12,000 nucleotides of DNA, taken from contig JARFPV010000579.1 of assembly GCA_029288115.1 (NCBI GenBank), positions 1 to 12,000 on the forward strand, in the 5' to 3' direction. This DNA is from Akkermansiaceae bacterium (GTDB lineage: Bacteria; Verrucomicrobiota; Verrucomicrobiia; Verrucomicrobiales; Akkermansiaceae). The notes below the pieces were generated by a model. It saw nothing but the letters and a program-made list of their open reading frames with translations. It made no database searches and was not told the origin of the DNA. The stretch's first letter is position 1; the number at the start of each line of letters is the position of its first letter. This document shows, in pieces, positions 1,189 to 12,000 of the stretch. Made by a program: the position numbers and the translations under genes.

Positions 1189-2001
1189 TTAGAGGGCGGG
1201 GATGAGGGTTTCGCGGATCCATTCTCCATCGTGCAGAGTGACACCATCCGGATCGTCAACAGCGGCAGGGGCTTCATCTTCACAGATCACCCAGCCGTCG
1301 TAGTCCTGTTCGACGAGCCACTTGGTGATACCTAACAGATCCACCTTACCCTGACCCATGAGGGCAAACTCGGGATTACCATCCCAGTCCTTGTAGTGGA
1401 CGTGGTTGATCAGGCTGGCGTATTGCTTCATTTTATCCAGAGGATCCATCTCGCCGTTGATGATGTGCCCGACGTCAGGCGTCCAACCAGTCACGCTGCT
1501 GTCGAGGTTCTCAATGATGTCGGTGTAATCTTCCTCGGTGCGGTTGATTGATGTCTCAGGAGAGTTCGGGTGGAAACTGCATTTGATGCCGGCGTCAGTA
1601 GCGCGCTTGGACACGGCATTGACATTGGCAACGAGGTTCTTGCGTCGCTGCTCGAGATCGTGACGGCCATTCGGCATCTGCACCGTACAAAGCACCGCAC
1701 CAGGGAACTGCTTGAGCAACTCAATCACACTGTCCGCTGCGGCACGCTCCTCATCGGTTTCCTCCGGGTTATTCCAGTCTTGGACAAAGGCAATCGCAGC
1801 GAGGTCCACTCCATGTTTATCGAGGCTTTCCTTGAGCAGAACCGGATCAGCCAGGTCTCCCATCCAGAAATGCATCGGCTCAATGCCGGTCATTCCCGCC
1901 TTTGCGGTGACTTCGATCATGTGGTCCAGTTTGTTGTCCCAGAAGGCACCTGATTCCTTCATGAACCAGGTGTAACATTCGTTTCCAAATTTAATTTTCA
2001 T
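1189..2001 (-). CDS. Sugar isomerase/epimerase, IolE-like TIM barrel
   Basis: A 270-residue protein of the xylose isomerase-like TIM-barrel superfamily (AP-endonuclease 2 family), which includes inosose dehydratase IolE, hydroxypyruvate isomerase and ketose 3-epimerases. Candidate divalent-metal ligands sit where the fold places them: Glu41 in GIEPMHF, His144 in CSFHPNS, Asp176 and His179 in TPDVGHI, His200/His202 in NHVHYKDWD, and Glu241 or Glu243 in ICEDEA. The C-terminal YDGW motif is also in the next upstream gene product, suggesting relationship. The ATG at 1999-2001 has no obvious Shine-Dalgarno sequence; it is seven bases from the preceding stop codon and one base before the next gene. 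The exact substrate is unknown; generic annotation is safest. Confidence 0.85.
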   Translation of the reverse strand: MKIKFGNECYTWFMKESGAFWDNKLDHMIEVTAKAGMTGIEPMHFWMGDLADPVLLKESLDKHGVDLAAIAFVQDWNNPEETDEERAAADSVIELLKQFPGAVLCTVQMPNGRHDLEQRRKNLVANVNAVSKRATDAGIKCSFHPNSPETSINRTEEDYTDIIENLDSSVTGWTPDVGHIINGEMDPLDKMKQYASLINHVHYKDWDGNPEFALMGQGKVDLLGITKWLVEQDYDGWVICEDEAPAAVDDPDGVTLHDGEWIRETLIPAL

Positions 2002-2008
2002 AGTTTTG

Positions 2009-2857
2009 TTAGATTTTGTGTTTTTCGATCATTGCTTTGGTGAAGGCGTAGCCGTCGCGGCAGATATCCATGCGCGGGTTGAACTCACGCCAGACGTTGA
2101 TGGCATTGGCGAAATCAAGATCATCACGTGAGAATGCCTCGATGGTGTACCACCCGTCGTAACCAGTCTTGGCGATGGAGCCAAACACCTCGTCCCATGG
2201 AATATGTCCAGCACCGGGTGTGCCGCGGTCGTTTTCACTGATATGCACATGCGTCATCACCGGCCCAATGGTATCGATGGCTCCGGCAAATGATTTCTCT
2301 TCGATGTTCGCGTGGTGCGGGTCAAACATACCGCGCAAGTTCGGATGGTCTGCCAGGTCGACGAGCTTTTTCAGCTGTGCCATGGTATTGACGAGATAGC
2401 ACTCGAATCGGTTGAGCGCCTCAGGCGTCAGGGTGATTCCTGCCTGTGCAGCGTGCTCTGCAGCAGCGTGGAGAACCTCCGCACTGCGTTTGTATTCATC
2501 CTCTTGCGGCTCGTCGCGCGAGAAGGTGGCGAATGCCGAGTGGAAAGGACCACAAATGTTCTTTCCGCCTGCAGCGTGCATGTTGTCGATCGCCTCCTTG
2601 ATCTTGTCTAACCCAGCCTGCCTGACTGCGGCATCTGTTGAGATGGGGTCCTGGTCAGGCCCAAGCCCAAGGCATCCGTTCACCTCTAAATCGATGGATT
2701 GTAGAAACGATCCGACCTTCTCGTAGTTGGCGCGGTCTGGCTCGGCGAGGAAGATCTCAATGCCGTCGTATCCGATTTCCTTGAGTGCCTCAATGTCTGC
2801 GAAGTGCTCCTCGGTGACATTCGTCGACCAGAGGTGCATGTTCATTCCAATTTTCAT
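2009..2857 (-). CDS. D-psicose/D-tagatose 3-epimerase-like protein
   Basis: A 282-residue TIM-barrel protein that matches the ketose 3-epimerase group closely. The four expected metal ligands can be seen: Glu146 in TPEALNRFE, Asp179 in FDPHHANIEE, His205 in HVHISENDRGTPG, and Glu240 in YTIEAF. The NRFE segment, the ANIEE segment and the SENDRGTPGAGH loop are characteristic of D-psicose (allulose) / D-tagatose 3-epimerases, which invert C3 of free ketohexoses and often ketopentoses using Mn2+ or Co2+. Length is typical. It is the second gene of the operon, 15 bases after the stop of the large TIM-barrel gene. With ribulokinase downstream, a ketopentose such as L-xylulose or L-ribulose is a possible substrate; that part is inference. 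The ATG at 2855-2857 is the natural start. Confidence 0.87.
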   Translation of the reverse strand: MKIGMNMHLWSTNVTEEHFADIEALKEIGYDGIEIFLAEPDRANYEKVGSFLQSIDLEVNGCLGLGPDQDPISTDAAVRQAGLDKIKEAIDNMHAAGGKNICGPFHSAFATFSRDEPQEDEYKRSAEVLHAAAEHAAQAGITLTPEALNRFECYLVNTMAQLKKLVDLADHPNLRGMFDPHHANIEEKSFAGAIDTIGPVMTHVHISENDRGTPGAGHIPWDEVFGSIAKTGYDGWYTIEAFSRDDLDFANAINVWREFNPRMDICRDGYAFTKAMIEKHKI

Positions 2858-2872
2858 AATGTTTAACGGTGA

Positions 2873-3898
<1,026 letters not shown>

Positions 3899-3907
3899 GT
3901 GGCAGAG

Positions 3908-3936
3908 CCTAGATAGCTCATTCTGGAAATTCTAGG
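3908..3936 (-). promoter_or_regulatory. Possible operator/promoter of the carbohydrate operon
   Basis: In the 75-base gap before the first isomerase gene, the five-base arms CCTAG (3908-3912) and CTAGG (3932-3936) form an inverted repeat with a 19-base centre. CTAG is generally scarce in bacterial genomes. The right arm overlaps a TAGAAT sequence (3929-3934, minus strand) that could be a -10 box. A -35-like ATGTCA lies 19 bases upstream, which is too long a spacer to be convincing. Both the operator and the promoter calls are weak. Confidence 0.2.
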
Positions 3937-3973
3937 ATATATTCTCAGATTTTTGACATCCGGGTTTGGAAAA

Positions 3974-4579
3974 TCATTCCGTGCGCTGCGCAATCATATA
4001 GACGTGCGGCTCTGTCGGTCCCTGATCGAATTCCACATGCCTCACCACACAACCAAACTGATGCAACAGACGAAAGTATTCCGGAATTCCCAACGTGCTG
4101 TATTCAAAGTCCTCACCCTGGAATGTCCCCGAGATTTTGCTCGGCTCATGGCTGCCACCACAAGTAAACATAACAACCCCACCTGGAGCCAAAGCATTAC
4201 ACATGTTTTTTAATGCAGCTTCGTGCAAGTCGAGTGGAAGGTGAAACGTGCTGTCCCATGCACAAACCAGATCATACTCGGTCTCGGTCTTCCACTGAGA
4301 TATATCCGCGACCGCAAACTCACTCTCAGGGTGTAGCTCACGGGCATGACGGATCATTTCCTCCGAAATGTCGATCCCGTCTACCTGAAAACCATGTTCC
4401 TGCAGCTCGTTGATAAAACGACCACTGCTGCCGCAGCCCACATCAAGAGCACGTTTCCTGTTGGTGACCCAGGTAACCGCACGCCTGAGCTGTTCAACAC
4501 CATAACCAGATGCCTCATGTTGCTGACGCCACCATTCAGCAATGCGGTTGTACTTTTCTCCAGTTACCTCAGGTTTCAT
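3974..4579 (-). CDS. Class I SAM-dependent methyltransferase
   Basis: A 201-residue soluble Rossmann-fold methyltransferase. Motif I is ALDVGCGSSGRF at 44-55, the acidic residue after strand 2 is Asp70 in VDGIDIS, and the Asp93 region (VADISQW) fits the adenine-contact motif. CAWDSTFHLP at 107-116 and the NALAPGGVVMFT post-motif follow. The substrate is not evident. A longer frame extends to 4702 with a hydrophobic N-terminus, but that lies inside the upstream acyltransferase gene in another frame; the ATG at 4577-4579, one base after the acyltransferase TAA, is much more likely. This tight coupling suggests co-translation and a shared pathway, so methylation of an acylated amino-lipid head group is a reasonable inference. 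Other small-molecule methylation cannot be excluded. Confidence 0.85.
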   Translation of the reverse strand: MKPEVTGEKYNRIAEWWRQQHEASGYGVEQLRRAVTWVTNRKRALDVGCGSSGRFINELQEHGFQVDGIDISEEMIRHARELHPESEFAVADISQWKTETEYDLVCAWDSTFHLPLDLHEAALKNMCNALAPGGVVMFTCGGSHEPSKISGTFQGEDFEYSTLGIPEYFRLLHQFGCVVRHVEFDQGPTEPHVYMIAQRTE

Positions 4580-9292: not shown

Positions 9293-10324
9293 ATGACAAG
9301 CGATGAGCAATGGATGGCCCAAGCCGTCGCCGAGGCACGTAAAGGCATCGGTCTTACATCTCCAAACCCACCAGTCGGAGCTGTCATTGTAAAAAATAAC
9401 ATCGTCCTCGGTAAAGGGTGGCACCAAAGGGCAGGAGAGCCACATGCTGAACGGAAAGCAATCGAGGACGCTTCCACCAGCAACGGAAACGACTCCATGA
9501 AAGGAGCAACGATCTATGTGACACTCGAACCATGTTCGACAACCGGACGCACCCCCGCTTGTACCGATGGCATCCGTGAAGCCGGAATTACACGTGTGTG
9601 TTATGGATCGGTTGACCCTAACCCAGCTCATGCAGGTAGGGCCGACGCGATTCTAACAAACCAAGGAATCAAGGTGGATCAAATCGCAGACACAACAGAT
9701 TGTGACTCATTAATTCGTGCATTTGCAAAAGTCCAAAACACAGGACTACCCTGGGTCACACTCAAATCCGCGATGAGTCTGGACGGCCACATCACCCGCC
9801 CAACAGGGGAGGGGCAATGGCTAACATCGCCGGAATCGAGGACAGTGGTTCAGCGTATGCGCTACGAATCCGATGCCATCCTAACAGGCGGACAGACCCT
9901 CCGCGTGGATGACCCCGCGCTTACCATCCGCGATACCTCGCTCCCCAACAAGCCGCAACCGTGGCGTATGGTTGTCACTCAGGGGGACAAGGCAAGTTTA
10001 CCACCTACCGCACAGCTGTTTACCGATACCCACGCCGACAGAACTCTGGTGCAAGAAAACGGAGACCTTACTACAGCGCGTCGAACGCTCGTCGCCAAAG
10101 GATGCAATTCTGTTCTGGTGGAGGCCGGGGGCACATTGATGTCTGCGTTTTTACGCGCTGGTCTCGCGGATGAGGTTGCGCTCTTTTACGCGCCCCTCAT
10201 CACCGGCACAGACATTTCTGCCTTCGCCCCGCTACCGGAAGACATACCCCTCGCTGATCCCACCTACACCCGTATTGGTAACGACATCCTTCTCCGCGCT
10301 TCTATTCTGAAAACTGAAAACTGA
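9293..10324 (+). CDS. ribD: Bifunctional riboflavin deaminase/reductase RibD
   Basis: A 343-residue cytoplasmic enzyme that deaminates 2,5-diamino-6-ribosylamino-pyrimidinone 5'-phosphate and then reduces the ribose with NADPH in riboflavin synthesis. The N-terminal deaminase domain (1 to about 145) has TSPNPPVGAVIV at 22-33, the zinc/catalytic HAE motif at 51-53, and the zinc cysteines Cys81 (LEPCSTTGRTPAC) and Cys90. The C-terminal reductase domain starts at about 152 (LPWVTLKSAMSLDGHIT), with AILTGGQTLRVDDPALT at 195-211 and the nucleotide-binding LVEAGGTLMSAFL at 275-287. Length is normal and all key residues are present. The ATG at 9293 has only a weak AGAG upstream. No other rib gene is next to it, so the pathway genes are dispersed; pspA follows after 88 bases. 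Confidence 0.95.
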   Translation: MTSDEQWMAQAVAEARKGIGLTSPNPPVGAVIVKNNIVLGKGWHQRAGEPHAERKAIEDASTSNGNDSMKGATIYVTLEPCSTTGRTPACTDGIREAGITRVCYGSVDPNPAHAGRADAILTNQGIKVDQIADTTDCDSLIRAFAKVQNTGLPWVTLKSAMSLDGHITRPTGEGQWLTSPESRTVVQRMRYESDAILTGGQTLRVDDPALTIRDTSLPNKPQPWRMVVTQGDKASLPPTAQLFTDTHADRTLVQENGDLTTARRTLVAKGCNSVLVEAGGTLMSAFLRAGLADEVALFYAPLITGTDISAFAPLPEDIPLADPTYTRIGNDILLRASILKTEN

Positions 10325-11728: not shown

Positions 11729-11953
11729 TCATTGTTTGCGGTCAAGTGCCCACTCCAAAGAAACTCGAGGCCTGATTCTAAACTTGAGCAAACCTCTACC
11801 ACTCTCCTTGCTGAAGGTAATCATCATGGCGGCGCCTTCAACATTCTGATGAAGTGTCACATGCTCAACTTCTAGAATATGAAGCCCTGTCAGCAGCTGA
11901 TTATCTGTGAAAAGTCGAATTTCATATTCTCCATCAGATGGATACATCTTAAT
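11729..11953 (-). CDS. Unrecognised protein, C-terminal part (N-terminus lost at adapter)
   Basis: An open frame on the minus strand ends with TGA at 11729-11731 and runs into adapter sequence. Genuine sequence covers at most 74 residues, from IKMYPSDGEYEIRLFTDNQ to VSLEWALDRKQ. It could start at the ATG at 11945-11947 (72 residues) or be the end of a longer protein. It is polar, alternates hydrophobic residues in a beta-rich pattern (EIRLFTDNQ, AAMMITFSK, GLLKFRIRPRVSLEW), and may be a small beta-barrel or PilZ-like domain, but I do not recognise a family. The residues MYKRQ that would precede it are adapter-encoded and not real. Confidence 0.5.
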   Translation of the reverse strand: MKMYPSDGEYEIRLFTDNQLLTGLHILEVEHVTLHQNVEGAAMMITFSKESGRGLLKFRIRPRVSLEWALDRKQ

Positions 11954-11986
11954 CTGTCTCTTATACACATCTGACGCTGCCGACGA
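11954..11986. other. Illumina Nextera adapter (Tn5 mosaic end plus read-1 primer)
   Basis: Bases 11954-11972 are CTGTCTCTTATACACATCT, the 19-base Tn5 mosaic end used in Nextera libraries, and 11973-11986 (GACGCTGCCGACGA) are the reverse complement of the Nextera read-1 primer site; all 33 bases agree. This is library sequence, not genome. The last 14 bases (11987-12000) sit where an i5 index and the P5 sequence would follow and should not be trusted. Confidence 0.97.
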
Positions 11987-12000
11987 AGATTGTCTAGTGG

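Follow-up and report, generated by a model that had tools for sequence, protein, structure and literature searches.

The stretch of DNA analysed here (the window, 12,000 bases, from an Akkermansiaceae bacterium) is the whole of contig C341 of genome G000, a contig of exactly 12,000 bases whose end coincides with the window edge. The genome is a bin of 710 contigs (3.17 Mb; completeness 81.4, contamination 4.5). A Pfam domain scan was applied to 10 of the 36 window ORFs. Three adjacent minus-strand ORFs (1189-3898) carry xylose-isomerase-like TIM barrel domains (PF01261); an alpha/beta hydrolase ORF lies beside them at 375-1283, and a carbohydrate kinase fragment (FGGY_N) lies near them at the left edge of the window. 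On the plus strand, the ORF at 9293-10324 is, by its domains (deaminase plus RibD_C), a ribD-type riboflavin biosynthesis gene. The right edge is made up of the following features.

11729..11998, minus strand: 5′-open ORF of a hypothetical protein (89 aa), in which residues 1-15, TRQSSSAASDVYKRQ, are translated adapter (from the ORF list and the comparison with C192)
11931..11953, plus strand: last 23 genomic bases, which are also the opening 23 bases of C192, another contig of this bin
11954..11972, plus strand: Tn5/Nextera 19-base mosaic end, reverse complement, an exact match
11973..11986, plus strand: Nextera read-1 (i5 side) adapter arm, reverse complement, forming with the mosaic end an exact 33-mer
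11987..11996, plus strand: 10-base i5 index AGATTGTCTA
11997..12000, plus strand: start of the P5 arm, GTGG as against a presumed GTGT

Adapter and genome at the right edge of C341

The last 47 bases of the window, 11954-12000, are synthetic Illumina Nextera library DNA and lie outside the genome of the organism. The 33-mer CTGTCTCTTATACACATCTGACGCTGCCGACGA is found at 11954-11986 on the plus strand, exact and in a single copy in the window, and a chance match is ruled out, as the 33-mer appeared in none of 200 dinucleotide-preserving shuffles. When up to 3 mismatches are allowed, the 19-base mosaic end at 11954-11972 is likewise the only match in the window, and 1 of 200 shuffles contained one. 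The trimming instructions of Turner 2014 (PMC3906532) print these very 33 bases for removal from read 2 and, for removal from read 1, the partner adapter, the 19-base core followed by the arm CCGAGCCCACGAGAC. Thus, the exact agreement of 33 bases with the Nextera transposase adapter, which a preliminary description had claimed from the letters of the window, is borne out by the printed adapter. Compared with the Nextera read-1 read-through treated in those instructions, the 33 bases, their orientation and their position past the insert end are the same, but in C341 the adapter has survived into an assembled contig, with a 10-base index behind it.

The boundary between genomic and adapter sequence is exact. 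Bases 1-23 of contig C192 (G000:C192:1-23, L012) are identical to window positions 11931-11953; beyond 11953, C192 reads ACGATACCTG and the window reads CTGTCTCTTA. The genome resumes in C192 right at the 11953/11954 boundary, in agreement with the earlier claim that everything from 11954 on is artificial. To our knowledge, a 23-base overlap fits no assembler setting that we can name.

The boundary also falls within the minus-strand ORF at 11729-11998, the genomic part of which (11729-11953) has no Pfam match. When C341 and C192 are joined, the minus-strand frame is kept, with 137 codons open between stops, or 118 codons when counted from MNPF, the first plausible start by our choice. Among 58 genomes (its own included), the joined 118-residue protein matches only its own two halves and finds nothing in the 57 others; therefore, the relatives neither support nor oppose the C341-C192 junction.

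Adapter tails at the contig ends of the bin

With up to 2 mismatches allowed, the 19-mer occurs 87 times in G000 (83 exact copies and 4 with 1-2 mismatches), and a reversed control pattern of it occurs 0 times. All 87 mosaic ends are at contig ends, and all of them face outward. The mosaic end and read-1 arm of C341 have this same orientation, which the preliminary description had correctly recognised as that of a read running off its insert. From mosaic end to contig end, the 87 tails measure 19 to 128 bases; C341 ends 28 bases past its mosaic end. The arm behind the mosaic end, assigned on a comparison of at least 3 bases, is of the read-1 type at 49 ends and of the read-2 type at 32, the 6 ends with 0-2 bases after the mosaic end being too short and left out of the assignment. 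The partner (read-2 side) adapter is, then, present at sister contig ends of the same genome, and 60 of the tails show index bases.

Among the 87 adapter ends, C341 and C192 are the only pair that share their last 18 genomic bases. A second adapter end, that of C12, has a 96% similar copy in C627 which runs on without adapter. Of the 86 ends other than that of C341, 17 were searched against the bin; each of them found itself, for 16 this was the one strong match, and the search also gave two weak matches (E 0.36 and 0.67). Since the flank search and the sharing of 18 bases gave only these cases, continuation of the genome is seen directly for C341 and, by way of a similar copy, for C12.

The index bases fall into a small number of sequences. 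On the read-1 side, 37 tails retain 4 or more bases of the index; if one mismatch is allowed in whatever index bases a tail has, 19 of them carry the i5 index AGATTGTCTA, that of C341, and 18 carry ACACCGTGAC. Behind the read-2 arm, where 23 tails have two or more index bases, three i7 indices occur, in 12, 9 and 2 tails. The occurrence of two i5 indices, nearly equal in number, suggests that the assembly combined two or more indexed libraries, and the three i7 indices, taken along with them, suggest the same.

The P5 portion inside the window amounts to 4 bases only. We take the expected P5 sequence to begin with GTGT directly after the i5 index; the four bases in this position, reached by 25 of the read-1-side tails, are GTGG in 17, GTGT in 6 and GGGG in 2. 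Over the P5 part of the tails, 265 of 272 departures from this presumed sequence are changes to G, and at least 12 of the last 15 bases are G in 18 of the 25 tails (both sides) that have at least 45 bases after the mosaic end. Because 17 of 25 tails carry GTGG and the departures run to G, GTGG is the usual form in this assembly: it represents the beginning of P5, one base of which has been lost to G. The reading of 11987-12000 as index plus the start of P5, which had been offered with hesitation on account of this very base, can accordingly be adopted. In two-colour Illumina chemistry, according to PMC13218037, a missing signal is read as G, which can go as far as poly-G where reads end. The drift to G is what such chemistry would give, and the instrument was probably of this type.

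Two further observations concern the lengths of the tails and the other end of C192. The longest tails in the bin, 3 of the 87, are 128 bases long; added to the 23-base overlap of C341 and C192, this makes 151, which is a common read length. It may be that the sum corresponds to the smallest insert the assembler was able to anchor. A minus-strand ORF of C192 (L012), at 2840-4222, has its apparent start, MCIRDR, inside adapter at the contig's other end, a false methionine start.

Origin of the terminal 47 bases

We regard it as virtually certain that 11954-12000 originated by read-through into a Nextera adapter that was left untrimmed. A library fragment would have been shorter than the read that covered it, and sequencing would have carried on past the end of the fragment into Nextera adapter, i5 index and P5 arm; trimming of the reads would then have been omitted or incomplete; and the assembler would have lengthened C341 by a read of this kind up to position 12000, where support gave out. 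What is seen at the locus has the form that such read-through would leave: an exact mosaic end and read-1 arm facing outward, index and P5 bases behind them (P5 as presumed above), a position at a contig end that recurs at unrelated ends of the same assembly, and a genome that goes on differently past the 23 shared bases.

The 19-base mosaic end derives from Tn5, and it might be asked whether the match at 11954 is a natural Tn5/IS50 end, that is, whether a genuine transposon has been inserted in the genome with these 19 bases as its tip. A transposon body would then lie beside the mosaic end; what follows in C341 is the read-1 arm, the index and the start of P5, by which a natural end at 11954 is refuted. 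The bin at large speaks against it in the same way, as a synthetic read-1 or read-2 arm, partial or whole, stands behind the mosaic end in 81 of the 87 tails (the other 6 having 0-2 bases there), index bases are seen in 60, and a transposon body is seen in 0 of the 87, all of which stop at the contig end. We give this origin practically no chance. Hardly better placed, at an exceedingly slim chance, is a chimeric join in which adapter DNA links two pieces of genome, a possibility that the preliminary description had raised for the case that the contig went on beyond 12000. Because C341 ends at 12000, that conditional remark is void; zero genomic sequence lies past the adapter, and a chimeric join in C341 is ruled out by this end.

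No result in this analysis favours a natural origin of 11954-12000. As adapter read-through, these bases are an ordinary sequencing artefact without biological novelty, and nothing biological follows from them. They should be trimmed; after trimming, the gene call at 11729-11998 loses its false start. In addition, C341 can be placed next to C192.

Adapter tails in other genomes and public collections

Among 58 related genomes (own included), the exact 19-mer is present in three, with 83 copies in G000, 61 in G010 and 36 in G043. The 12 ends sampled from G010 have the same arms and, where readable, other index sequences; of the 6 sampled from G043, 4 continue into an arm and the remaining 2 go no further than the mosaic end. 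Scans with the 33-mer gave at least 120 stretches in IMG/VR and at least 120 in the GTDB species genomes. Among the matches listed, in which a stretch end is not always a contig end, 119 of 120 in IMG/VR and 121 of 126 in GTDB lie within 100 bases of the outward end of the stretch, the exceptions being L099 in the former and L231, L302, L289, L280 and L246 in the latter. These contigs resemble C341 in carrying the same 33-mer, mostly near outward ends among the matches listed, but differ from it in their indices: the first 8 bases of either G000 i5 index begin 0 of the IMG/VR and GTDB tails among the matches listed, where no fewer than 9 tails end with the 33-mer itself and cannot be judged.

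Since the 33-mer is found in at least 120 stretches of each collection, adapter screens of assemblies are still worthwhile. The literature searched yielded no mention of the adapter-derived peptides SDVYKRQ and MCIRDR. We consider it likely that the assembly drew on at least two indexed libraries and that adapter-derived protein starts from such contigs (SSSAASDVYKRQ here, MCIRDR in C192) may stand unnoticed in public protein catalogues. In the IMG/VR exception, L099 (IMGVR_UViG_3300000510_000121), the 33-mer is at 2154-2186, 2.1 kb into a viral contig of 4.7 kb, and a chimeric join through adapter is possible there.
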